From Candidatus Saccharimonadota bacterium (lineage in GTDB: Bacteria; Patescibacteriota; Saccharimonadia; Saccharimonadales; UBA4665), in the NCBI GenBank assembly GCA_027371845.1, contig DAHXLD010000017.1, positions 1-60,201 on the forward strand: a DNA stretch of 60,201 nucleotides. Reading direction: 5' to 3'. A program made the translations under genes and the position numbers. The first letter of the stretch is position 1. Every line of letters begins with the position of its first letter. Below are positions 28,012 through 53,207 of the stretch, piece after piece. The notes under the pieces were generated by a model. It saw nothing but the letters and a program-made list of their open reading frames with translations. It searched no databases and had not been told where the DNA came from.

Positions 28012-28409
28012 TGGTGGAGCTGCCGGTGATTGCAACCGGGTCCGCTAGTTTAATTCATTAAATGTCTACAGGCATAGTTAATTTAAATCCTATATCTAAA
28101 TAAAAATTAACAAAAATTAGACAAGTTTCCTTATATTGGTCTTAGCATTAAAAATAAAGGAAAAATCTTTAATGAGCATCCAAAAGATATAAAGCGCTTA
28201 ATCAAAGTTTGGAGCTTTTAATTAAGCACTGCCTTTAATATACAAAGGCTGGTGCGAAAGGAGCAAATACGTTAGCAAAAGAGCTTTTAATACTTGCGGC
28301 TAAATCGCTGATTCTAGATTTTGCATCTAAAAGTTTTTGCCTATAACGCTGACAAGCGACCTGCAAATTTAATTATTAAAATCCAACGTCGAGCTTTTGA
28401 TTCAGCCCC
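28012..28409 (-). ncRNA. ssrA: Transfer-messenger RNA (tmRNA)
   Basis: Minus strand 5' GGGGCUGA pairs with 3' CAGCUCC-A-CCA as a 7 bp acceptor stem with a G3-U wobble; T-arm CCGGU/UGCAAUC/ACCGG; resume-like UUUUAGAU-GCA at nt 86; in-frame tag ORF ending UAA; promoter and terminator at the correct distances. Confidence 0.9.
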
Positions 28410-36505: not shown

Positions 36506-36997
36506 TTAGGGCATTTTGTCGTGGATAAAATTATATTTGAATATTTGATTATTATTAATTATCCGAGTATCGACTTCATCATAACCGACCCTATTCATTT
36601 CACTAATCGTAAAACTAGTTTGGTTAACTTTAATAACGAAGGCAACGTGTCCTAAACCTCCCGGAGCATTAGGGTCCTGCATTATAGACCCAATAGTTGG
36701 AGTTTGATTAACTAAATAACCGGCTTTAATGGCATTTTTAGCCCAATCAATGGCATTGCCCCAATTATTAGGAATAGGATCCTTTAATTTAAATCTGAGT
36801 AAATAAACCCAATAAGTACAGTTTCCAAAAGCATATTTGTCATTTGAAAGAATCGGACCCGTATATATATAAATGTTTTGATTTTTGAAATATTTATTAT
36901 CTAGAGCTGATAGATTAGTAATTGAAGAAAGAGTAATTACTGGCAACAACACCACTAGAAACATAACAGTACTAATAATTAATACTGGATGTTTCAT
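36506..36997 (-). CDS. Secreted CHAP domain protein
   Basis: Signal-like N-terminus; FGNCTYWVYLLR...NNWGNAIDWAKNA...GGLGHVAFVI; resembles the CHAP of 7623-8768. Confidence 0.85.
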   Translation of the reverse strand: MKHPVLIISTVMFLVVLLPVITLSSITNLSALDNKYFKNQNIYIYTGPILSNDKYAFGNCTYWVYLLRFKLKDPIPNNWGNAIDWAKNAIKAGYLVNQTPTIGSIMQDPNAPGGLGHVAFVIKVNQTSFTISEMNRVGYDEVDTRIINNNQIFKYNFIHDKMP

Positions 36998-38694
36998 TTA
37001 GATTGACTCATTATTTCAAACGGATCGGTTGTTATTATGGGGTGTTCTTTTAAGGATGACATTATTCTAACGGCTACGTGAGCTTGATCAACAATCATTA
37101 AAGCTTCGCCTTTATCAGAATTCAATAAGTAGTTATACTCATACTCGCTTAAATTAAAATCTTTAAATACCTCCTTGATAGTGGTGCTATCCTGGCGCAT
37201 TAAGATTCGAAGAGAGCTCTGAGAAGCTATAACTTTCCCAAAAGGATTATTCAAAAAGTCACTAGCTTGTTGAGAGATAATATTAACTCCAAGAAAATAT
37301 TTACGGGCTCTTCTAACTAAGCCAGAAATAAATTTAGCGCTTGCTTTATGTTCTAATAATATCCAGGCTTCATCTATAACAAGAAGGCTCTTTTGGGTTT
37401 TGTTCTGAACTTTTGTAGTGACAAAGTTTGAGATTATTATCATCATAATTGGCCTAATGTTTTCAGACAAATCTTTAATATTAAATACAACCAATCGATT
37501 GTTTAAATCAATATTCGTTTTTTTATTAAAAATGTCTTTAAGTGATCCATTGACAAATTTTTCCATTCTTTTAGCAAATTTGTCTTGTTTCAATTTAATT
37601 AGAATTAAATATAGATCCTTAAGTAACGGCTCTTTTAGAGATTTCGAATTATATATTTGAAGTAAAGCTTTATCTAAGGCCGCCTTTTCGTCACTACTCA
37701 AACCGTCGACCATCAAACTAATCACCGCCATAAGATCTTGGATACTTTGATTGGCATTCTTTTTTAAATGCTTCCCCTTCAATACATCTAAGGGATTAAT
37801 GACGTCTTTAGAGTTAGCCGAAATCTTTATATAACTACCCCGAACTGAGTCGCAAATTTCTTGATATTCATTTTCAGGATCAATAACTATTACATTAACT
37901 CCGTCACTAAGTTGCCTTAAGATTTCAATTTTTGAGAGATAACTCTTACCGCTTCCCGATTGAGCAAAGATTATTGAATTGGCATTCTGAAGTTTAAATC
38001 GATCAATAATTACTAAAGAATTGTTACTTCTATTGACGCCGTAAATAACGCCACTAGAATGGGCTAATTCATTAGACATAAAAGGAAAGGTTAAAGCCGA
38101 TGAACTACTATCTAAATTCCTTTTTATATTTAGTTCGTCATCGGCTCTTGGGAGTATGCTTTGCAAGGCCTGTAACTGTCGATAACGAGCAATTTTTACA
38201 AAAAATAATTTTGACGACAAGGTAGATTCAAGAATATCTGTCGTTTTATTAAGATTATTTAAAGAATCAGCTCTTAAGGCAATATATATTCCAATTTGAA
38301 ATAATTTTTGTTGGCCTCTTAAAATTTTATCTCTTAAGGTGACGGCCGACTCTAAAGGGTCGGTAATCTCAGAACCGATTATCTTACCATCGGTAATCAT
38401 CGATCTTTTTATCGATTCGAGTTCAGTTATTTTTCTGTTTAGTTTGGGTAGAGCATTAATAGAGGCTATTTCTTGAAAATGATAACTAACATCGCAGTCA
38501 TAGGGAAAACTTATCAGATCATCTAACCAGCCACTCGATGCTACGAACGGATATCCTAACAAATATAAAGTTCTAATGTAAGTATTATCTAAAACTAGAT
38601 GATCAATATCTTCGTAAAGTCCACTATAAGAAAATCTTTCAGTTATATGTTCTTTACCCTTAAATAAGAGATCCTTTTTATAGATTTTAGTCAT
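36994..38694 (-). CDS. VirB4/TraC-like T4SS ATPase, ATPase part
   Basis: NSIIFAQSGSGKSYLSKIEILRQ, VNVIVIDPENEYQEIC, LLVIDEAWILLEH, GVNIISQQASDFL. Confidence 0.92.
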   Translation of the reverse strand: MTKIYKKDLLFKGKEHITERFSYSGLYEDIDHLVLDNTYIRTLYLLGYPFVASSGWLDDLISFPYDCDVSYHFQEIASINALPKLNRKITELESIKRSMITDGKIIGSEITDPLESAVTLRDKILRGQQKLFQIGIYIALRADSLNNLNKTTDILESTLSSKLFFVKIARYRQLQALQSILPRADDELNIKRNLDSSSSALTFPFMSNELAHSSGVIYGVNRSNNSLVIIDRFKLQNANSIIFAQSGSGKSYLSKIEILRQLSDGVNVIVIDPENEYQEICDSVRGSYIKISANSKDVINPLDVLKGKHLKKNANQSIQDLMAVISLMVDGLSSDEKAALDKALLQIYNSKSLKEPLLKDLYLILIKLKQDKFAKRMEKFVNGSLKDIFNKKTNIDLNNRLVVFNIKDLSENIRPIMMIIISNFVTTKVQNKTQKSLLVIDEAWILLEHKASAKFISGLVRRARKYFLGVNIISQQASDFLNNPFGKVIASQSSLRILMRQDSTTIKEVFKDFNLSEYEYNYLLNSDKGEALMIVDQAHVAVRIMSSLKEHPIITTDPFEIMSQSK

Positions 38695-39350
38695 TACTTA
38701 CTCCGTTCAATTATTAAAGAATGGTATTCATCATAGTCTTTTAAAGTTTTAACGGGGTATAGACGAGCTTCGGTAAAATTATAAAAGCTATAGAATAAAT
38801 CAATTATTTCGAGAGTATTTATTATTCTCGATGAGATATTTAGTTTAGCTAAATTTTTAGATATGAGTTCTGAGCGAAGTTTCAATTGTTGTTTAATGTT
38901 TTCGAAATCAGTTTTATAACTTAAATCTAAGGGTACGATAATGTAAAAAGATTTATTTAATATTTTATTAGATTTAATTAGTTCATTAATAAAGGATTTT
39001 TGATCTTCAAGTTGTTCTTTATAGATAGAATCACTTTCTAAACTAATTTTTGAATCAATAGTCTCTAAATAGTCTTCAATGTTAGTTTGACGAGTACGAA
39101 TTAATATTTGAATGCTAAAATTTAAAGAATTTAAAAAACTTTCATAATTATCGATAACATTATCCTGCTCAAATTCACTTTTAAGTTGAAAATTAATTGA
39201 AGATACTTGGATTATTTGTCGATATTTATTTTTATTAATCTTTAGAACGCCGTCTTTTATGTCCGAAATGTCTATTTGTTTTTTAGAAGAGCTTAAACTT
39301 TTATTATTTAATAAATTGAACATAAACTCCTCCTTTCTTCCCGTAGCCAT
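38694..39350 (-). CDS. VirB4 N-terminal-domain-like (TraC-like) protein; start probably internal
   Basis: Position between PrgI and VirB4 ATPase; INKNKYRQIIQVSSINFQL...SIQILIRTRQTNIEDYL resembles N-terminal VirB4 regions. Confidence 0.65.
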   Translation of the reverse strand: MATGRKEEFMFNLLNNKSLSSSKKQIDISDIKDGVLKINKNKYRQIIQVSSINFQLKSEFEQDNVIDNYESFLNSLNFSIQILIRTRQTNIEDYLETIDSKISLESDSIYKEQLEDQKSFINELIKSNKILNKSFYIIVPLDLSYKTDFENIKQQLKLRSELISKNLAKLNISSRIINTLEIIDLFYSFYNFTEARLYPVKTLKDYDEYHSLIIERSK

Positions 39351-39744
39351 AAGAAAAACTCAACTTTTTAAGGTTGTTTAACGAAGTATGATTAAGCTTT
39401 TGCGACCTTTCAGAAATTTTATTAAAACTTAGATCTTCTATAGGTTGATCATCTCTAATCAGAACAAAAGTTTTAGGTCTAAATTTATAGCCTAAAATAA
39501 GGCTTAAATATTCAATCAAAATGTGTCCTTTATACTTAAAAGATAAGGGCGTGATGATTAAGGAAAGAATAATTGCGATAATCATTTTTAAAAACGTAAA
39601 CTTAGCAAGTGGAGGTATAATTAAAAAAATAATCATCACTAAAATTAGATTAACGACTAGGATAATAATTTGCTTTAAGTTTAAAAAAGAGGTTATTTTA
39701 TCCTCGACAGACGTTATTTGAGCCGGTATGACTGTACTTCTCAT
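39304..39744 (-). CDS. PrgI family T4SS membrane protein (VirB3-like)
   Basis: QITSVEDKITSFLNLKQIIILV... two TM helices ...YLSLILGYKFRPKTFVL. Confidence 0.8.
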   Translation of the reverse strand: MRSTVIPAQITSVEDKITSFLNLKQIIILVVNLILVMIIFLIIPPLAKFTFLKMIIAIILSLIITPLSFKYKGHILIEYLSLILGYKFRPKTFVLIRDDQPIEDLSFNKISERSQKLNHTSLNNLKKLSFSYGYGKKGGVYVQFIK

Positions 39745-41063
39745 CTATTTACTCCCTCCCGCACGCTAACGTTAGGACTTGAGGAATTTAGACTACCCGA
39801 GTTATTAGAATTATTTGGAGTATCTTGATTATTTTTTTGGTTAAAAGCTTGAGACATCGAATTAAAAGGCATTGAAGTACCATAACTTAAATTCAAAACC
39901 ATTCTTTGGCTTAACTTTCTGGCCATTCTGGGAACAACGCTAATAACAGCCAGCTCGGCTAAAACACCCTGGGTTTTGATTAAAGCAAATAAAGCAGCAA
40001 GTCCAAGTACTAAGGCCATTAGTGGGCTCAAATTAGAGCTATTAGAATATATACCAACTAACAATGAGGCTGCTAGTTCAATGATAACGACATGAACAAA
40101 CAGTACAAAAACAACTGATACATATTTTTTAATCATGGAGATTGCCGAATCTCGAAATCCTGGAATCAGAAAACAAAGTATAACTATAGGAGATAGTACA
40201 GCGCCTAAATAAATTGTAATTAACCGGCCTAAATAAAAGATTAATAGAATAATGCTTAGTATTAAGAATATTAACATTATTAAAAGTATTGCCAGACTAT
40301 AGCCACTCGTTGTACCAACGATTGTTTCTAGAGCTTTCCAAAAATTGTTAATAATATTACTACTGGATATCGCTTTAATCATAATATTAGATATTTGAAT
40401 TAAATAATCGATTAAATATATTGAAAAATTCATAAACATAAAAGTTACTAATATTTGAGGTAATAGCTCTCTTAGGTCTACACTTTTAAACCCTAAACTG
40501 GTTGAGGTAATGATTTTTAAACCTATTAAGGTAATGGCAAGAATTAAAAGCCCGTCAGCAATCCCTAAACAAATTAACCAAAGTTTTAAAACGGCCGTAT
40601 TGGTGCTCACTAAAGGCGTGGCTTTTAAAAAGTAGGCTAAGGCGGCTATAAAAGGTATCCCGATCGTCTCAATGATACTGCCCAATACTCCGCTAATAGT
40701 TTTTATAACGATATCAATTAATCCATTAGAGGATTTGTTAGTTTTAATTGCACTAATAGAAGGAATACTGGTTGCTTGATGGTTATTAACGGGTCCGTAG
40801 GTATTTATTAAAAAATTGCTAATAAAACTCGCACTAATTACGATTACTAGCCCAATTAAAGCATTCTTTATAATTTTTTTGGATTTTTCTAATTTTTCAG
40901 GGCTAGCCGAAGACGTTATGTAATTAAAGGCACCTATTACCAAGAATAATACTGACAGTAAAGAACCGATTACCCCAAAAGTCTTAATAATAGGAGAAAG
41001 TGAGCTCACAACATAACTATAACTAGATGCGAACGTAAAAATATTAAACAATTTATCCCCCAA
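39741..41063 (-). CDS. VirB6/TrbL-like polytopic protein with N-terminal pilin-like domain
   Basis: Polytopic C-terminal region; N-terminal FNYITSSASPEKLEKSKKIIKNALIGLVIVISASFISNFLI matches the adjacent pilin-like ORF. Confidence 0.75.
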   Translation of the reverse strand: MGDKLFNIFTFASSYSYVVSSLSPIIKTFGVIGSLLSVLFLVIGAFNYITSSASPEKLEKSKKIIKNALIGLVIVISASFISNFLINTYGPVNNHQATSIPSISAIKTNKSSNGLIDIVIKTISGVLGSIIETIGIPFIAALAYFLKATPLVSTNTAVLKLWLICLGIADGLLILAITLIGLKIITSTSLGFKSVDLRELLPQILVTFMFMNFSIYLIDYLIQISNIMIKAISSSNIINNFWKALETIVGTTSGYSLAILLIMLIFLILSIILLIFYLGRLITIYLGAVLSPIVILCFLIPGFRDSAISMIKKYVSVVFVLFVHVVIIELAASLLVGIYSNSSNLSPLMALVLGLAALFALIKTQGVLAELAVISVVPRMARKLSQRMVLNLSYGTSMPFNSMSQAFNQKNNQDTPNNSNNSGSLNSSSPNVSVREGVNR

Positions 41064-41400
41064 AAGAACTCGTCGCTAAATTTGTAATAATACTAGAAAT
41101 CACAAAAGCAGCTATTGTTATAGAAAGCCCGATAGCAGAATAAAAAATGGTTCGTTTAGCTTTTTCAAGTCGATGAGGATTTCCAGAAGAAGTAATATAG
41201 TTAAATCCTCCCAAAACAAAATAAGCGGTTGCTACTAAACCAGCCAGCCCCGCCATGATTTGGATTATTCCTTTAATAAAACTGGATATTTGGTTTACAT
41301 TCGGACCCGTTGATATGGCATAGGTAGTTCCTTCATTAAGAAACACGATTATTAAAACTAGGTATACTCTGGTTATTTTAGTTCTTAATATTTTAAACAT
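41053..41400 (-). CDS. VirB2/TrbC-like pilin (Mbov_0395-type conjugal pilin-like)
   Basis: Two-TM 115 aa protein GGFNYITSSGNPHRLEKAKRTIFYSAIGLSITIAAFVISSII. Confidence 0.75.
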   Translation of the reverse strand: MFKILRTKITRVYLVLIIVFLNEGTTYAISTGPNVNQISSFIKGIIQIMAGLAGLVATAYFVLGGFNYITSSGNPHRLEKAKRTIFYSAIGLSITIAAFVISSIITNLATSSFGG

Positions 41401-41560: not shown

Positions 41561-42664
41561 CTAACCACCAACATAACCCGCTACGTATTGAAAAACAAAA
41601 TAAGACCAACAAATAGTAGTTAATATTAAACTCGCCGTTAATAGTTTTGGTTTATTTTTTAAATAATCGTAAATCATGAACTGCATTGGAAAAGCCATCA
41701 ATAAATACCTGTTAAACCCTCCAAATTGATTCCCCAGAATTGGAATGAGTAAAAATGAAAGACTATAAACACTAAAACTTTTTCGCCGTGTCCACCAATA
41801 TTTGGCCGACATTATAAGCAGGATTACAAACAATAGACTAATCGGATTTAAGCCTGTAATCAATTCAAGGTATTTATGATTTAACCAGCCTTGGGACTTT
41901 TGCGAGGCCAAAAAAGCTAAAGGAGAATTAAACTTATATTTTAAATATAATAAATAGGAAATAATTGAGCTTAAGGCCAATACCGTATATCCTAGAATTT
42001 TTCTTATATTCTCCTTATTTTCAAACATTATTAAAATAATTAAAAAAATTACTAAAATAGCATCAATGTTAGTAATAGCTAAGAGTAAAGAGCTTAGTGA
42101 GCTTAAAAAATATTTCTTTTTGAGAGCAAAATAAATTGCTGACAGAGCTAAAAAAGCAAATAAACTTTCGGTGTAGGTAGCAACTAAAAATACAGCTGTT
42201 GGGAAAAATAGAAAAAATAATAAATAATTTAAAATTGAAAAGTTATCTTTTTTATTAAACTCTAGTTTTAATATTTTTATATAAAAATAAATTGCTAAAA
42301 CTAAAGAAATCCAAGATATGATTAAAGCACTATCGAGATACGAATGAACAACTTGAGCTAAAAAATGAATTAAAATTGGATAGAGAGGAAGAAAAATTGT
42401 TAAAGAAGCGTTGCTATAGGAACTTCTTGCGACCTTTAAATAATTAGGTCCATCCCAATTAGATAAAATCTTTAAGGGGTTATTTGGCTCAAGCAAATAG
42501 TGAGCGGCTGGATCGGGATTCTTAATAATGACCTTATTGTTATAAAAACCAATAAAAAATACCAAAAGAATTAGACTAAGAGCTAATAAGAAAGCCAAGA
42601 ATAATTCTTTATGATTAATAGTTTTTAATATTTTTTTGAATTTAATTTCCATAAAATTCATCAT
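41561..42664 (-). CDS. Polytopic mannosyltransferase-like (PIG-V/GT-C type) protein
   Basis: Multi-TM; NWDGPNYLKVARSSY, FFPTAVFLVATYTESLFAFL. Confidence 0.8.
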   Translation of the reverse strand: MMNFMEIKFKKILKTINHKELFLAFLLALSLILLVFFIGFYNNKVIIKNPDPAAHYLLEPNNPLKILSNWDGPNYLKVARSSYSNASLTIFLPLYPILIHFLAQVVHSYLDSALIISWISLVLAIYFYIKILKLEFNKKDNFSILNYLLFFLFFPTAVFLVATYTESLFAFLALSAIYFALKKKYFLSSLSSLLLAITNIDAILVIFLIILIMFENKENIRKILGYTVLALSSIISYLLYLKYKFNSPLAFLASQKSQGWLNHKYLELITGLNPISLLFVILLIMSAKYWWTRRKSFSVYSLSFLLIPILGNQFGGFNRYLLMAFPMQFMIYDYLKNKPKLLTASLILTTICWSYFVFQYVAGYVGG

Positions 42665-42706: not shown

Positions 42707-43582
42707 TTATTTGTCATTAAGTTTGATTCTTTTATTAATATGAAAAACTAAAATCATTATTCCAAGAATTAAAAGATATATTAAAAATACCGATCGATCG
42801 ATAATGTTAGCTAGGATTATACTTGAATTAGATAAATGACTTAAATGTCTCGTTAAGATTAAAAAAGCCTCTCTTATCCCTATTGCGCCTGGTGTTAAAG
42901 AAACAAAAATGGTTAAAGCAGCACTTCCTGAATATGTTAAGGCGTTTCTAAAAGAAACTGTTTTATCGACACTATGAAGTTCAATTAGATATATTAGGGT
43001 TTGTAAGAGTAATTGTATAATCGTGATAATAACTAGATTAATAATATTTTTCGAATTAATATTTAACTTGGAGTTTTCTTTTTTTAGATAAATCCTAACC
43101 GCCAGTATGGTAGCTATTATAAAAACGATTGATGCGGCTGAAGCTAAAAGTATGGATTGACTGCCAAATAAAATAAAGAGGATTGAAATTATTAGATATA
43201 TGGCAAAATATATGGCAGTTGCTAAGGTAAAATCGATTGCTTTAATCTTATGTTTTGTCTTTAAATAATATCCTCGATATATAGGGCCTGTTTGACCTGG
43301 TACAAAAAAGTTCATAAAAATCGAATAACAGTTTAAGAGCAAATTATCTTTAAAATTTAATTTAACCTTTAAAAGTTTTACGGTGAATTCAAATACAAAT
43401 ATGAGCACAAAGAGCATCAGTATATAAAGGCCTACAATTAGAAGTATTAATAAGGGGGAGATTTTTGTTAGATAAGTGATTAAATTTTTATGATTTGCCA
43501 AATAGTAGACGGCGGCTAAAATAGTCGCTAAAATAATAAGAACACTAATTAACGGTTTAAACTGTTTAATACTTTTAAACAT
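42707..43582 (-). CDS. Lysylphosphatidylglycerol synthase TM / UPF0104-like flippase protein
   Basis: Polytopic; FFVPGQTGPIYRGYYLK, SLTPGAIGIREAFLIL. Confidence 0.8.
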   Translation of the reverse strand: MFKSIKQFKPLISVLIILATILAAVYYLANHKNLITYLTKISPLLILLIVGLYILMLFVLIFVFEFTVKLLKVKLNFKDNLLLNCYSIFMNFFVPGQTGPIYRGYYLKTKHKIKAIDFTLATAIYFAIYLIISILFILFGSQSILLASAASIVFIIATILAVRIYLKKENSKLNINSKNIINLVIITIIQLLLQTLIYLIELHSVDKTVSFRNALTYSGSAALTIFVSLTPGAIGIREAFLILTRHLSHLSNSSIILANIIDRSVFLIYLLILGIMILVFHINKRIKLNDK

Positions 43583-43659: not shown

Positions 43660-45189
43660 ATGAAAAAACGATTTATTGAACGTGTCAAAAATATTCTTGC
43701 AAGTAATAAATTCTTTGTTTTTGTTTTAATTCTTTTTGTCTTAGAGTCAGCCTTAATAGCTTTGACGGCGGCTTACCCCCAAGCCTTTGACGAGAATTTT
43801 CATTTTGGAATAATCAAAGTTTACTCTCATTACATTTCTCCCTACTTAACGTCTCAGCCACCAAACGCCGATGCTTTTGGAGCTTTAGCGAGAGATCCTT
43901 CGTTTTTGTATCATTACCTAATGAGTTGGCCCTATAGGCTAATTGAAGTGTTCGTTAAAACTCAAATTTATCAAATAATAATATTAAGATTTATTGATAT
44001 CGTCTTTTTTGCTGGTGGTTTATATTTCTTTAGAAAAGTTTTAATTAAATTTAAAATATCGAAAGCTCTAGCAAATCTGACAATTCTTCTTTTTATTTTA
44101 ATTCCGATTGTTCCACAATTAGCCGGACAAATTAATTACGATGATTTATTATTTCTTTTAATACCAATCAACGTCTTGCTAAGTTTTAAGATCTTAGATG
44201 AATTAAAGCAACAAAAAGCGAATTTTGTGTCTATAAGTGGCCTATTAATTTTAGCTACCTTAACTTCAATTGTTAAATATGCCTTTTTACCGATTTATCT
44301 AGCAATAGTCGTTCTAATGATTTATCAAGTATTTAAGAACTTTAAAAAACTTAGAATATTTTTTAAAGCATTATTAAAAAGCTTTATAAAAACTACATTA
44401 ATATTAAAAATCTTATTAATAATATTTATTATTTTAAGCTTATTCAGTTTCGCTGAAAGAGATTTAGTCAACTTAATAGAATATCATGCTATTGCTCCTA
44501 GTTGCAGTAAGGTATTAACCGTTAAGGAATGCTCAAGTTACAGTGTCTGGAAAGCAAATTTCGAACGACATAACGAAGTGCTTAAACACAAAGCCATTCC
44601 ATCTACCAATTTCTTTTTCTATATCGGTCAATGGTTTTACTGGATGTGGTATAGATTATTTTTTGCTATCAATGGGCCGAAACAAGAATTTAAGAATTAT
44701 CCTCCTCTACCCTTGCCAAGTGCTATTGGAGCCATACTTGGGGTATACGGACTGTTCATATTAATAAAATATATTAAAAGAATTCTTAAAAATAACAATT
44801 ATGCCCAGTTACTCTTCTTGATAAGCTTATTTTATCTTGTAGCCTTGATTATCCAAGGTTATATCTCTTACAAATATACGGCCGTTCTAGAAAATATGAA
44901 TGGCAGATATTTAATACCCATGCTAATACTATTACTCGCCTTGGTCTTAAGGGGTACATATTACGTCTTTAAGGGAAAGGCCTTCTTAAAAACTGTTTTA
45001 GCGATAGCTGTTCTAGTTTTATTTCTTCAAGGCGGAGGTGCCCTAACATATATTATTCGGAGTGATAGTAATTGGTATATACACAGTAAAAAGGTTACAA
45101 AGATAACTAAGATAGCCAAAAAAATTACCAAGAAAGTAATCGTCAAGGGTAAAAAAACATATTCAACTAATTTTTGGTTTTTCAATTGA
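43660..45189 (+). CDS. Polytopic glycosyltransferase-like (GT39/GT-C) protein
   Basis: Multi-TM; early acidic loop YPQAFDENFHFGIIKVY; YLIPMLILLLAL near C-terminus. Confidence 0.72.
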   Translation: MKKRFIERVKNILASNKFFVFVLILFVLESALIALTAAYPQAFDENFHFGIIKVYSHYISPYLTSQPPNADAFGALARDPSFLYHYLMSWPYRLIEVFVKTQIYQIIILRFIDIVFFAGGLYFFRKVLIKFKISKALANLTILLFILIPIVPQLAGQINYDDLLFLLIPINVLLSFKILDELKQQKANFVSISGLLILATLTSIVKYAFLPIYLAIVVLMIYQVFKNFKKLRIFFKALLKSFIKTTLILKILLIIFIILSLFSFAERDLVNLIEYHAIAPSCSKVLTVKECSSYSVWKANFERHNEVLKHKAIPSTNFFFYIGQWFYWMWYRLFFAINGPKQEFKNYPPLPLPSAIGAILGVYGLFILIKYIKRILKNNNYAQLLFLISLFYLVALIIQGYISYKYTAVLENMNGRYLIPMLILLLALVLRGTYYVFKGKAFLKTVLAIAVLVLFLQGGGALTYIIRSDSNWYIHSKKVTKITKIAKKITKKVIVKGKKTYSTNFWFFN

Positions 45190-45277
45190 AAAAAAACTGA
45201 AGGATTATAGAGGTTAGTTTTATTTATAACAGATTTTAGGCTATAATATGCTTTCATTAGCGAAAAAAGAGAGATTT

Positions 45278-46243
45278 ATGAAATTAGTAATTATGATTCC
45301 TTGTTTAAATGAGGAAAAAACCTTACCGTTAGTTCTTAAAACAATTCCAAAATCTATACCTAAAATCGATCAAATCGAAATCTTATTAATTGATGATGGG
45401 TGCGACGATAAAACGGTAGAAGTTGCTAAAAAATTTGGGGTAAAGCATTTTATTCATCACACCAAGAATCAAGGTTTAAGCCGATCATTTCGTCAAGGTT
45501 TAAATCGAGCTCTCGAAATGGGAGCTGATATAATTGCCTTAACCGAAGGAGACAATCAGTATCCTCAAGACAGGATCCCGGATTTAATAAAACCAATATT
45601 AGATAAAAAAGCTGATTTAGTTATTGGAGATCGTCAAACTCAAACAATCGATCATTTCTCATTATCTAAAAAGTTTTTTCAAAAGCTAGGAACCAGTATT
45701 TTGAATATGGCCGCCGGTACAAATATTCCTGATGCTATTAGTGGCTTTAGGGCTTATTCAAAACAAGCGGCACTACAACTTAATCCAGTAGCTGACTATA
45801 GTTGGGCAACTGAGACTACCATTCAAGCCGCTCACAAAGGACACAAAATCGTTATAATCCCAATTAAAACTAATCCTAAATTAAGAGACTCAAGACAATT
45901 CAAGTCTTCCTGGCAACATATTAGAAAATCGGCTATTACCATTATAAGAGCTTTTATAATGTATAAACCCTACGCTTTATTCTTTAGCCTTGGAACGTTT
46001 TTTCTAATCGTAGGTCTGATCCCGTTTATACATTATTTGTATTTAGTTATTACAACTAAAAATCCGTTTGGAGCACACCACCTTCAGTCTTTACTCCTGG
46101 GGGCAATCTTACTAATTGCGTCGTTTATTTCATATACCTTAGGAGTTATCGCCGATTTAATTAGAATAAATAGATCTCTTATCGAAAATCAATTAGAGAT
46201 CATAAAACAAGATCATATTAATAGTTTAAATAAAGCGAAATAA
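45278..46243 (+). CDS. Glycosyltransferase family 2 (dolichyl-phosphate mannose synthase-like); start moved from 45248
   Basis: MKLVIMIPCLNEEKTLPLVLK...IDDGCDDKTVEVA...ALTEGDNQYPQDRIPDLI...SGFRAYSKQAALQL; C-terminal TM pair. Confidence 0.93.
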   Translation: MKLVIMIPCLNEEKTLPLVLKTIPKSIPKIDQIEILLIDDGCDDKTVEVAKKFGVKHFIHHTKNQGLSRSFRQGLNRALEMGADIIALTEGDNQYPQDRIPDLIKPILDKKADLVIGDRQTQTIDHFSLSKKFFQKLGTSILNMAAGTNIPDAISGFRAYSKQAALQLNPVADYSWATETTIQAAHKGHKIVIIPIKTNPKLRDSRQFKSSWQHIRKSAITIIRAFIMYKPYALFFSLGTFFLIVGLIPFIHYLYLVITTKNPFGAHHLQSLLLGAILLIASFISYTLGVIADLIRINRSLIENQLEIIKQDHINSLNKAK

Positions 46244-46244
46244 G

Positions 46245-47405
46245 CTATTTGACAACCCACTTGCTGGTAGGATAGATAGTCTTTAAGTTTACTCGGTCCT
46301 TATATTTCAGGGTTATGTTTTGAACTTCATCCATTAAGCCTTCGTTTAAGGTTTTGGGCTTAAGTCCAAGTTTTAAGAATTTCGAATTATCTACCACTAA
46401 ATCATTTCGGGGGTCTTCTTTTCTTGGATTCTCGACATAGCTAATCTTTGCAGAGGTCTTTTTTGATATTAATTTAGCCAGATCACTTAATTTTCTGGTT
46501 TCGGTGGCTTGATTAAATATCGATGGTCTATCGCCTTTTTTGGGGGGATTATTAATAGCTATATTAATACACTTAACGGTATCTGATATATTTATGAAGG
46601 CTCTAGTTTGGCCACCTTTTCCATAAATTGTTAAGGGATGATTTATGGCAGCTTGCATTAAGAATCGATTTAAAACCGTTCCGTAATCTCCATCATAATC
46701 AAATCTGTTGATTAACTTCTTATCTAGTTTAGTTTCGTCGGTTTGAGTCCCCCAAACAATGCCCTGATGAAGATCGGTAATTCTTAAACTATCGTTTTTG
46801 CAGTAAAAACCAAACATCAACTGATCAAGAGTCTTGGTCATATGATAAACCGATCCTGGATTAGCTGGATGAAGAATCTCTTTTTCTTCTCTAGTTGTTC
46901 CAACTAAGACCTTTACATAACCTTCAGGTATAGGGTTCTTACCGGTCCAGCCGTAGCCGTATACGCCCATTGTACCTAAATGCACAATATGGCAATCTAG
47001 CCTAGTTTCGACAATGGCGTTTAGGATATTATGAGTTGCATTAACATTATTGTCGACGGTATATGATTTCGTTGAAGAATTCTTCATTGAATAAGGAGCT
47101 GAACGTTGTTCGGCAAAATGAACGACGGCCTCTGGTTTAAAGGATTTAAAAAGCTCTTTTAATTCAAAATAATTTTTAGCAATGTCTAGTTTATAAAAAG
47201 AAATCTTGTTTTTAGATATCTTATTCCAAGTTTTTATGCGGGTCTCAATATCTTCTATTGGGGTTAGGGAGTTTGTTCCAAGTTCAATGTCTATTTTCCT
47301 GCGACTAAGATTATCAACAATTAAAATCTTGTGTCCTTTATTTGACAAATGAAGAGCTGTTGGCCAACCGCAAAAACCATCCCCTCCAAAAACTATAATC
47401 TTCAT
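46245..47405 (-). CDS. sqdB: UDP-sulfoquinovose synthase-like SDR (SqdB/SQD1/Agl3 family)
   Basis: GGDGFCGWPTALHLS, VDNLSRRKIDIELGTNSLTPI, VHFAEQRSAPYSM, YTVDNNVNATHNIL, HLGTMGVYG, YHMTKTLDQLMFGFYCK, DLHQGIVWGTQTDET, NRFDYDGDYGTVLNRF, PLTIYGKGGQTRAFI. Confidence 0.93.
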   Translation of the reverse strand: MKIIVFGGDGFCGWPTALHLSNKGHKILIVDNLSRRKIDIELGTNSLTPIEDIETRIKTWNKISKNKISFYKLDIAKNYFELKELFKSFKPEAVVHFAEQRSAPYSMKNSSTKSYTVDNNVNATHNILNAIVETRLDCHIVHLGTMGVYGYGWTGKNPIPEGYVKVLVGTTREEKEILHPANPGSVYHMTKTLDQLMFGFYCKNDSLRITDLHQGIVWGTQTDETKLDKKLINRFDYDGDYGTVLNRFLMQAAINHPLTIYGKGGQTRAFINISDTVKCINIAINNPPKKGDRPSIFNQATETRKLSDLAKLISKKTSAKISYVENPRKEDPRNDLVVDNSKFLKLGLKPKTLNEGLMDEVQNITLKYKDRVNLKTIYPTSKWVVK

Positions 47406-49203: not shown

Positions 49204-49716
49204 ATGAGAAAATTTGTCGTTGGTATTGCTATATTAGGAATTTTTATCGTTTATAGTGTTGGGATAAGACATCAAAGGCCCGTTCTTGCTAAGCCTGCTT
49301 CGCTATCTAAGGGACAAAGCTCGTCATCGTCTTCCAGCGCTGCCTCACAAACTGCAACAACCTCTGGGGGGTCTAATACGGCTTCTAACACGTCTAGTGG
49401 GGGTTCTCAGACAGCCGCTTCAACCAATACGCACTATAAAGATGGAACCTACAATGGAAGTGTCGCTGATGCATATTATGGTCAAGTCCAAGTTGCTGTA
49501 ACGGTTAGTGGTGGTAAAGTCACAAACGTTAAGTTTCTTCAATACCCAAACTCCCATTCAACTTCAGTATATATAAATCAACAAGCTATGCCTTACTTAA
49601 AACAAGAGGCTATTCAATCTCAAAATTCAAATGTTCAGATAATTAGTGGGGCTACTTTTACATCGCAAGCTTTTATTCAATCATTGTCTAATGCTTTATC
49701 TAAGGCCAGTGCGTAA
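49204..49716 (+). CDS. FMN-binding domain protein (RnfG/NqrC-like flavin carrier), membrane anchored
   Basis: N-terminal TM, Ser/Thr linker, YKDGTYNGSVADAYYGQVQVAVTVSGGKVTNVKFLQYP...IISGATFTSQAFIQSLSNAL with SGAT flavinylation motif. Confidence 0.92.
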   Translation: MRKFVVGIAILGIFIVYSVGIRHQRPVLAKPASLSKGQSSSSSSSAASQTATTSGGSNTASNTSSGGSQTAASTNTHYKDGTYNGSVADAYYGQVQVAVTVSGGKVTNVKFLQYPNSHSTSVYINQQAMPYLKQEAIQSQNSNVQIISGATFTSQAFIQSLSNALSKASA

Positions 49717-50452
49717 AACAGAAATAATAATGGGAATGCCGATAACAATCGAGGTTGTTGATGTGGTTAGTGATAATATTTTTGACCAGATTTTTGGATA
49801 TTTTAAAGAAGTAGATAATAGATTTAGCACTTATAAAAGATCTAGTGAAATTAGTTTATTTAACAAGGGGACAATAAAAAAAGAAATGATTTCTAAAGAT
49901 TTAGATGAGATATTAAAGTTAAGTCAAAAAACCAAAGAAGAAACTTTCGGATATTTTGATATTAAAAAGAAAAATGGAAGATTTGATCCGTCTGGAATTG
50001 TTAAAGGTTGGTCAATAAGAAATGGAGCTCAAAAAATGTTAAAAGCTGGATACTCAAATTTTTTTATTGAAGCCGGAGGAGATATTGAAGCTCACGGTAA
50101 ACCAAAAGATATGTCATATTTCAGGGTTGGAATTAGAAACCCTTTTGATATTAATGCTATTGTAAAGGTAATAAAATTAAAGGACATGGGCATAGCTACT
50201 TCTGGTACGTACATTAGGGGGCAGCACATTTATAACCCCTTAAATTATAAAAAAGCCGATGAAATAGCAAGTATATCAGTCATCGGGCCTGATGTATATG
50301 AGGCCGATCGATTTGCCACAGCAGCCTTTGCTATGGGAGTTAGAGGAATTAATTTCATTGAAAATATGGTTGGATTTGAAGCCTATATGATTGACAAAAA
50401 AGGAATAGCAACCTTAACCAGCAAATTTGAAAGGTACACCGTTCATGCTTAA
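49709..50452 (+). CDS. apbE: FAD:protein FMN transferase (ApbE); probable GTG start 49709 instead of 49646
   Basis: MGMPITIEV, DNRFSTYKRSSEISLFNKG, FDPSGIVKGWSI, FFIEAGGDIEAHGK, IATSGTYIRGQHIYNPL, DRFATAAFAMG. Confidence 0.92.
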   Translation: MRKTEIIMGMPITIEVVDVVSDNIFDQIFGYFKEVDNRFSTYKRSSEISLFNKGTIKKEMISKDLDEILKLSQKTKEETFGYFDIKKKNGRFDPSGIVKGWSIRNGAQKMLKAGYSNFFIEAGGDIEAHGKPKDMSYFRVGIRNPFDINAIVKVIKLKDMGIATSGTYIRGQHIYNPLNYKKADEIASISVIGPDVYEADRFATAAFAMGVRGINFIENMVGFEAYMIDKKGIATLTSKFERYTVHA

Positions 50453-51965
50453 AAAATTAGATAGAATTATTGACAGTTTCTCAATGTATAGATTATTAAT
50501 TTATTATTTAGCAGGTTTACTGGGGGCTGCCTTTGTACTCGCAATCTTTAAGGACATAAGTTATAACCCTTTTTCCATTTTAGTGTCGAGTTCTATTTTA
50601 GTCGGAGCTAGTTATTTTATTAATAAAATATTAGCTAATTTTTTTGATGCACCAACTGGAAGTGATTCAGCAATTATTACCGGATTAATACTCGCTCTAA
50701 TAATTTCTCCTACTCTTGGTCTATATAATGTTATGTTCTTTATAAGTGCCGCTGGGCTAGCTATGGCATCTAAGTATATTCTGGCGGTTAAAAAGAAACA
50801 TCTTTTTAACCCAGCAGCCATCGCGGTGGTGTTAACAGCTTTTGGCCCCAAACAATCAGCTAGTTGGTGGGTAGGAACTGGAGTTTTATTACCCTTCGTA
50901 ATTATTGGTGGGATTTTGCTTGTTAGAAAGATTCATAGAGCTCGAATGGTTATTATCTATTTTATAGTCACCACTATTTCAACCATCTTTTTTGCTCTGA
51001 TCTCGAAAGTAAGTGTCGGAACAAGTATTTATGACATGATTTTTTCATCATCGGTATTCTTCTTAGGTTTTGTTATGCTAACCGAGCCATTAACTTCTCC
51101 CACCACCCAAAAGAAACAGTCCATTTATGCGGCAATCGTAGGGTTCTTACTGCCCCCACAAGTACATTTTCTAAATTGGTATACTTCTCCGGAGATTAGT
51201 CTAGTAATTGGAAATGTTTACTCGTTTATAGTAAGCCCTAAGGTTCGAATCTTGCCAACTCTAATTAGGAAGATCAGAACTACTCCAGACAGTGCAGATT
51301 TTATATTTGAGCCGGATAAGGATTTTAACTTTTTGCCGGGTCAATATATGGAATGGACTATACCCCATTTAAATACAGACTCTAGAGGTAATAGACGTTA
51401 TTTTACCTTAGCTTCCTCTCCAACTGAAACCAATATTAGAATTGGAGTGAAGTTCTTTAATAATGGGAGTAGTTTTAAAGAATCAATGTTAGCTCTAGAG
51501 GGTAACTCAATGGTATCTGCCGCCCATCTAGCGGGAGACTTTGTTATGCCTAATAACCCAAGAGAGAAACTTGCCTTTATAGCCGGAGGTATAGGTATAA
51601 CTCCTTATCGAAGCATGATTAAATATTTATTAGATAAAAATCAACGTCGAGACGTTGTGTTACTGTATTCATCCAAACACGTAGACGATCTAGCCTACAA
51701 GAGTATCTTTGATAAGGCTAAAAAAGAACTTGGTATTAGAGTTTTTTACTTCTTAACAGGTCGGAATCTAAAGTTAGACCAAGATAATTTTGTTGAGGGA
51801 AGAATAACCCCTGATCGAATTAAAGAACATATCCCGGACTTTATGGAAAGAACCTTTTACATATCTGGAACAGACTCCATGGTAATTGATACCAAAGAGA
51901 ATCTTATCAAGCTAGGAATACCCAAGAATCAGATTAAGAATGATTACTTTTCGGGTTATTCTTAA
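50445..51965 (+). CDS. Fusion of RnfD/NqrB-like membrane domain with ferredoxin-NADP reductase-like flavin/NAD domain
   Basis: N-half: TGSDSAIITGLILALIISP, KHLFNPAAIAVVL, FVMLTEPLTSPTTQKKQSIYAAIVGFLLP; C-half: FLPGQYMEWTI, NRRYFTLASSP, IAGGIGITPYRSMIKYL, YISGTDSMV. Confidence 0.9.
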   Translation: MLKKLDRIIDSFSMYRLLIYYLAGLLGAAFVLAIFKDISYNPFSILVSSSILVGASYFINKILANFFDAPTGSDSAIITGLILALIISPTLGLYNVMFFISAAGLAMASKYILAVKKKHLFNPAAIAVVLTAFGPKQSASWWVGTGVLLPFVIIGGILLVRKIHRARMVIIYFIVTTISTIFFALISKVSVGTSIYDMIFSSSVFFLGFVMLTEPLTSPTTQKKQSIYAAIVGFLLPPQVHFLNWYTSPEISLVIGNVYSFIVSPKVRILPTLIRKIRTTPDSADFIFEPDKDFNFLPGQYMEWTIPHLNTDSRGNRRYFTLASSPTETNIRIGVKFFNNGSSFKESMLALEGNSMVSAAHLAGDFVMPNNPREKLAFIAGGIGITPYRSMIKYLLDKNQRRDVVLLYSSKHVDDLAYKSIFDKAKKELGIRVFYFLTGRNLKLDQDNFVEGRITPDRIKEHIPDFMERTFYISGTDSMVIDTKENLIKLGIPKNQIKNDYFSGYS

Positions 51966-52943: not shown

Positions 52944-53207
52944 TTAAATATTATTTATATTATGTTCCAAATATTCCTGATTGATTAAGTTGACTACGTT
53001 CTTGTATCCATAAGACTTGAGAAGCTGTTCGGCTAAGCTTGCTCGTCCCCCGCTACGACAATAAACTATTATCTGGTCATCGACTGAAAATTTTGCTAAT
53101 ACAAACTCTTTATCTGAGAATCTTGAAAGAGGAACGTTAATTGAGTCTTTGAAGTGGCCCAAACTAAATTCATGTGGTTCTCTCACGTCAACAATAACTT
53201 TGGTCAT
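52944..53207 (-). CDS. Rhodanese-like domain protein
   Basis: VDVREPHEFSLGHFKDSINVPL...IIVYCRSGGRASLAEQLLKSYGY. Confidence 0.95.
   Translation of the reverse strand: MTKVIVDVREPHEFSLGHFKDSINVPLSRFSDKEFVLAKFSVDDQIIVYCRSGGRASLAEQLLKSYGYKNVVNLINQEYLEHNINNI

Follow-up and report, generated by a model that had tools for sequence, protein, structure and literature searches.

Sulfoquinovose chemistry is known mostly from phototrophs, some proteobacteria and the Sulfolobales. The locus described here raises the question of what a seemingly working UDP-sulfoquinovose gene of actinobacterial kinship is doing in a tiny, probably host-dependent soil Saccharibacterium. The gene lies in a 60,201-nt stretch of DNA (hereafter the window) from a Candidatus Saccharimonadota bacterium (assembly GCA_027371845.1, contig DAHXLD010000017.1, positions 1-60,201), whose genome is labelled G000 in the analysis and is represented by a 66% complete assembly. 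An earlier note, made from the letters of the window, had placed a UDP-sulfoquinovose synthase homologue beside a membrane glycosylation island in a CPR cell. The source agrees with this description, as several genomes of the same family have been deposited as Candidatus Saccharibacteria (e.g. L077, L079). In the open-access literature we found no paper that connects Saccharibacteria, Patescibacteria or CPR with sulfoquinovose or sqdB; sulfolipid and Saccharibacteria were co-mentioned in passing only.

The SqdB reading frame and its active site

The open reading frame at 46245-47405 (minus strand, ATG start) encodes an extended SDR of 386 residues, assigned to UDP-sulfoquinovose synthase (SqdB) by homology, active site and phylogeny. 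All of the SqdB/SQD1 signature motifs quoted in the earlier note (GGDGFCGW, HFAEQRSAPYSM, LGTMGVYG and YGKGGQTRAFI) were recovered in its translation. A phmmer search against the PDB returned plant SQD1 (1qrr/1i24) as a full-length match (354 bits, E-values 1e-104 to 1e-105), while the next SDR families scored at most 42 bits. SQD1 is 47% identical to the window SqdB and shares its fold family, triad and sulfite-site residues; the window protein differs in having Val148 for a glutamate and a three-residue insert after the YG of LGTMGVYG. The best NCBIfam family was UDP-sulfoquinovose synthase (NF041015), with a score of 356 bits against a curated cut-off of 575. This shortfall was not counted against the assignment, since SqdB proteins of known bacterial type also fall short (S. 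meliloti, 332 bits; Prochlorococcus, 328; an actinobacterial MAG, 336) and the cut-off was passed in just one of 14 control genomes. The family appears to have been built around the Sulfolobus enzyme Agl3.

The active site was compared in an alignment of 85 bacterial homologues. Residues H96, Q100, G147, Y149, Y187, H188, K191, Q266 and R328 were invariant, T145, M146 and R101 nearly so, and the window SqdB retains every one of them. It also contains the GxxGxxG nucleotide motif (G7-G10-G13) and the SDR triad T145/Y187/K191, which in SQD1 is T145/Y182/K186 (PMC4388408). The putative sulfite-site residues H96, Q100, R101 and H188 were invariant in a bacterial SqdB alignment. In Agl3, residues His95, Arg101, Met145, Tyr182 and Lys186 are essential, and Glu147 and Tyr148 are important for dehydration (PMC4388408). 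The first three of these have counterparts in H96, R101 and M146 of the window protein, while the Glu147-Tyr148 acid pair is replaced by V148-Y149, both SQD1 and Agl3 having the glutamate. The earlier note had made its assignment depend on the sulfite-transfer residues, and neither these nor the triad have been lost; the one change, glutamate to Val148, is found in 85 of 85 bacterial homologues, including rhizobial copies that precede SqdD and Prochlorococcus copies that precede an SqdX-like GT4. Valine is therefore a class trait of bacterial SqdB and marks no loss in the window lineage.

These comparisons bear on the idea that the protein is an SDR that has drifted to another UDP-sugar reaction, resembling UDP-glucose 4-epimerase or a 4,6-dehydratase, and has lost sulfite addition. 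Such drift would fit the replacement of a glutamate that Agl3 needs for efficient dehydration, the missed NF041015 cut-off and the failure to find a sulfite source in G000. However, the same valine is present in SqdB proteins of sqdBD operons, which miss the cut-off as well (328-336 bits), and the sulfite-site residues do not vary in the bacterial alignment, so that we regard the drift as improbable. By all available sequence tests, the open reading frame is a genuine bacterial SqdB within a CPR lineage, and its product very probably makes UDP-sulfoquinovose. In the proposed reaction, SqdB would oxidise UDP-glucose at C4 via bound NAD+, form a 5,6-ene and add sulfite.

Kinship and distribution of the gene

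SqdB proteins from S. meliloti, R. sphaeroides, Prochlorococcus and soil actinobacteria fall within the same clade as the window SqdB; the copies compared are 55-65% identical to it over their full length and have an identical active site, including Val148. In a careful, thinned IQ-TREE analysis, the window sequence and 18 others from the Saccharibacteria family formed one clade (support 98/95) whose sister group (99/97) came from soil actinobacteria (Streptosporangiaceae, Acidimicrobiaceae, Catenulispora and Kitasatospora), with both groups sitting inside bacterial SqdB. A quick, larger tree left SQD1 outside the bacterial SqdB clade and gave the window SqdB and its congener a more basal position, separate from the remaining CPR sequences; a second copy from G404 also stood apart. 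We read this basal placement as long-branch or composition pull, and a single clade of all CPR copies was not rejected by the AU test (p 0.25). The second G404 copy (L062:562-1824) is divergent, being 59% identical to the window SqdB and located on a separate long branch, and may represent another acquisition.

The trees thus position the window enzyme among SqdB proteins with an SQDG-operon context (SqdD lies downstream in the rhizobial members), a sulfonating type, and not in a non-sulfonating SDR subfamily. Its place in the careful tree identifies it as a bacterial SqdB and no orthologue of Agl3, although the trees took in no Agl3 sequence. Kinship with Agl3 has accordingly been abandoned: the two enzymes belong to the same reaction family, but the window SqdB lacks Glu147 of Agl3, falls far below the NF041015 cut-off and scores on that family like rhizobial and Prochlorococcus SqdB (356 versus 332 and 328 bits).

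Distribution of the gene is patchy. A scan of 379 genomes across the phylum detected an orthologue in one other genome, from the same family; SqdB is present in 20 of 93 genomes of the family and 21 of 392 of the order. Most simply, sqdB would have been acquired laterally from a relative of soil Streptosporangiaceae/Acidimicrobiaceae. The known hosts of Saccharibacteria are actinobacteria. The GC content of sqdB (0.358) is close to that of its contig (0.347), indicating that it is a resident gene. Contamination by an actinobacterial contig was ruled out by the same-genus copies, the resident GC content and the conserved T4SS and other neighbours. A search for phage relatives found none.

Partners of SqdB and the sulfolipid alternative

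Elsewhere in bacteria, SqdB is encoded beside SqdD (rhizobia) or beside an SqdX-like GT4 (Prochlorococcus, Micrococcaceae); these labels rest on position by SqdB, on family and on the established sqdBDC and sqdB-sqdX operons (R. sphaeroides: PMC11346425). In contrast, no SqdD or SqdX partner was found for the window SqdB, which lies, in a CPR genome, beside a polyprenyl-phosphate GT2/GT-C island. A Prochlorococcus SqdX query found no orthologue in the 21 SqdB-positive genomes, 13 of which are at least 90% complete. Its matches were GT4 background, with E-values of 1e-12 to 1e-19 (8e-15 at best in the 66% complete G000), and the best of all, in G439 and G404, reached 1e-28, against about 1e-107 for true SqdX pairs. 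Likewise, a S. meliloti SqdD query found an orthologue in none of the 21 genomes, while in many loci of alphaproteobacteria the same query detects SqdD next to SqdB. The lack of an SqdX/SqdD-type synthase, which the earlier note had reported for the locus, therefore extends to the window genome and 20 SqdB-positive relatives.

Because the known enzymes leading from the sugar donor to sulfolipid are absent, the destination of sulfoquinovose becomes a testable question. One answer would be a sulfolipid, either SQDG or a lyso or polyprenyl analogue, made by a non-orthologous glycosyltransferase such as a GT4 and perhaps drawing on host diacylglycerol. SQDG synthesis is the known role of this type of SqdB (R. 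sphaeroides sqdBDC, PMC11346425), and the final step is already catalysed in bacteria by either of two unrelated enzymes, SqdX and SqdD. The GT4 proteins, of which there are several, could be unrecognised sulfolipid synthases, and the two relatives with the 1e-28 matches come somewhat closer to SqdX than the rest. Nevertheless, neither known synthase has an orthologue in any SqdB-positive genome, and in nine genomes the neighbour of SqdB is a polyprenyl-phosphate GT2 and no SqdX or SqdD homologue. On balance, a sulfolipid appears rather unlikely.

The substrates of the reaction were also considered. UDP-glucose would be provided by the genome's own GalU-like enzyme: the UGPase named in the earlier note as a partner to look for has a GalU-like representative in G000 and in relatives, scoring 240.8 bits in G000 against a cut-off of 326.8 that is passed by 5 of 14 control genomes. 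Searches of the 66% complete G000 assembly yielded no sulfite-generating pathway. PAPS reductase (CysH) is encoded in two of the 93 family genomes, G381 and G383, both of them SqdB-positive, and their congener G382 has neither gene. Sulfite could be supplied via CysH in these two relatives, and would otherwise come from the host or the environment.

Several further sulfur-related genes were observed. CysH of G383 and G381 (149-159 bits, ECG motif kept) lies next to a paralogue of the window GT-C enzyme and in the same orientation (L183:4402-6733 and L182:3852-6931, respectively). A full sulfate-to-sulfite operon in these genomes was rejected, as CysH has queA and tgt for neighbours and the APS-kinase matches are weak. 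An SDR that distantly resembles SqdB (about 31% identity, with His96 changed to Asn and Arg101 to Pro) occurs in G485, G383 and G384, beside or close to a class V PLP enzyme similar to cysteine desulfurases (L063:8757-11206, L064:969-3451 and L066:8799-12160). All three of these genomes also carry SqdB (chance about 1e-4, kinship ignored). In the window itself, a single-domain rhodanese with a CRSGGRA motif is encoded at 52944-53207, 5.5 kb away from SqdB. Rhodaneses are able to liberate sulfite from thiosulfate; as a sulfite source here the protein is possible but unsupported.

The glycosylation island and its proposed link to SqdB

Four neighbouring genes encode membrane glycosylation proteins, and profiles and GT-C folds confirm the earlier description of them as a PIG-V-like, a UPF0104-like, a GT39-like (here GT-C) and a DPM-like GT2 protein. 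The last of these, at 45248-46243 (plus strand), is a polyprenyl-phosphate glycosyltransferase of AglJ/DPM type (PF00535, 84 bits; TIGR04182, 97 bits). The 509-residue GT-C membrane glycosyltransferase at 43660-45189 (plus strand) has no Pfam match. Its AlphaFold model (pLDDT 84.9) adopts a PMT/ArnT/ALG12-like fold, the best VIA rows having Z 17-19 and rmsd 4.1-5.7 over 320-393 aligned residues: ALG12 (Z 19.2, rmsd 4.3, 320 aligned), Pmt4 (18.5, 4.2, 385) and ArnT (17.6, 4.9, 338). The DE motif of this protein, D44-E45, is invariant. A UPF0104/LPG_synthase_TM flippase-like membrane protein is encoded at 42707-43582 (minus strand; PF03706, 64.8 bits, cut-off 33.4). At 41561-42664 (minus strand) lies a second GT-C membrane protein, PIG-V-like, which scores below the PF04188 cut-off (19.3 versus 22.4 bits) and whose model (pLDDT 76) has a GT-C fold (VIA Z up to 18.7, rmsd 4.6 over 299 residues).

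GT2, flippase-like protein and GT-C together have the make-up of a system for lipid-linked glycosylation outside the cytoplasm. The same three kinds of protein stand side by side in three-part polyprenyl-phosphate systems (a GtrB/DPM GT2, a flippase and a GT-C enzyme, e.g. ArnT or PMT), but the window island is orthologous to no characterised one. Type IV secretion/conjugation-like genes (PF18895 pilin, conserved neighbours) adjoin the island at 36506-41400, and the pilin gene is the direct neighbour of SqdB in G439 and G432.

The island is real, as the earlier note had it, but it is not dedicated to SqdB. Of the 93 family genomes, 81 encode GT2 but only 20 encode SqdB, and the idea of a dedicated island that includes SqdB was rejected on this ground. 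GT2 and GT-C genes are adjacent, or nearly so, in the absence of SqdB in G440, G427, G414, G405, G409, G451, G149, G457 and G443, and G409 (L175) keeps the window order T4SS-PIGV-UPF-GTC-GT2 with no SqdB. Since most of the family has the island but no SqdB, the island would normally use another sugar, and SqdB is an optional add-on beside a family-wide GT2 island.

SqdB adjoins GT2 in nine genomes, in two orientations. In the window genus the two genes are convergent; in the window itself, 1 bp separates their stops and they are not co-transcribed. In G386, G450, G404 and G219, SqdB is directly upstream of GT2 on the same strand; in the last three of these the genes overlap by 4 bases (GTGA/ATGA), which amounts to translational coupling. 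The order SqdB-pgi-GT2 is seen in G416 and G419. The intervening gene there is a glucose-6-phosphate isomerase on the same strand (L055:6827-10716, tested; L067:2340-5781, a homologue of equal length). SqdB is located away from GT2 in about half of the genomes that carry it. The SqdB tree requires at least four adjacency changes, and the distances of SqdB and of GT2 show only weak congruence (Mantel r 0.33, p 0.011); the pairing has thus either been retained and lost repeatedly or originated on more than one occasion. Either history suggests a functional tie. No column of note in the GT2 alignment splits SqdB-linked from SqdB-free copies.

The same data can be read in another way, with SqdB as a laterally passed accessory gene that lies near the island by chance and whose product enters a capsule or secreted polysaccharide via unlinked glycosyltransferases. 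The patchy distribution, the weak congruence and the many genomes in which SqdB is away from GT2 are all consistent with such a gene. However, SqdB repeatedly lies next to this same GT2, in two orientations and in some genomes translationally coupled to it, which would be unlikely under random placement among several hundred genes, and we consider this alternative quite unlikely.

We instead favour a model in which a laterally acquired SqdB delivers its product to a surface glycoconjugate, and give this explanation as a whole about an even chance. Its sequence-level basis comprises the enzyme family, the active site, the phylogeny, the anatomy of the island and the absence of SqdX and SqdD orthologues in the data. 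The neighbouring polyprenyl-phosphate GT2 and GT-C enzymes would use UDP-sulfoquinovose and place a sulfonated sugar on a surface glycoconjugate, the use by GT2 and the acceptor both being presumed. That UDP-sulfoquinovose feeds such a glycoconjugate rather than classical SQDG is a tentative conclusion, just short of evenly balanced. Agl3 makes UDP-sulfoquinovose for glycoconjugates (PMC4388408), and the earlier note had held an Agl3-like role in surface glycans to be at least as likely as sulfolipid synthesis; the surface-glycan part of this proposal draws support from the missing SqdX and SqdD and the recurrent GT2 adjacency, and may be right as to destination, whereas the kinship with Agl3 does not stand. 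More speculatively, the route in some Saccharibacteria may run from SqdB to UDP-sulfoquinovose, with the adjacent GT2 loading polyprenyl phosphate and GT-C transferring the sugar outside, so that sulfoquinovose is displayed at the surface. Such a route would give the episymbiont a sulfonated, permanently negative coat by way of a gene common to its likely host phylum. An SqdB that is sister to soil-actinobacterial SqdB, in a reduced epibiont genome with neither SqdX nor SqdD, poses a concrete question about episymbiont surface chemistry.

Two other features of the window were recorded. A flavin-based electron-transfer locus at 49204-51965 encodes an FMN-binding protein, ApbE and a fusion of an NQR2/RnfD-like membrane domain with a ferredoxin-reductase-like domain, and is kept in L170, L171, L186 and L045. 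A tmRNA (RF00023, 68 bits) missed by ARAGORN is located at 28012-28409 on the minus strand.
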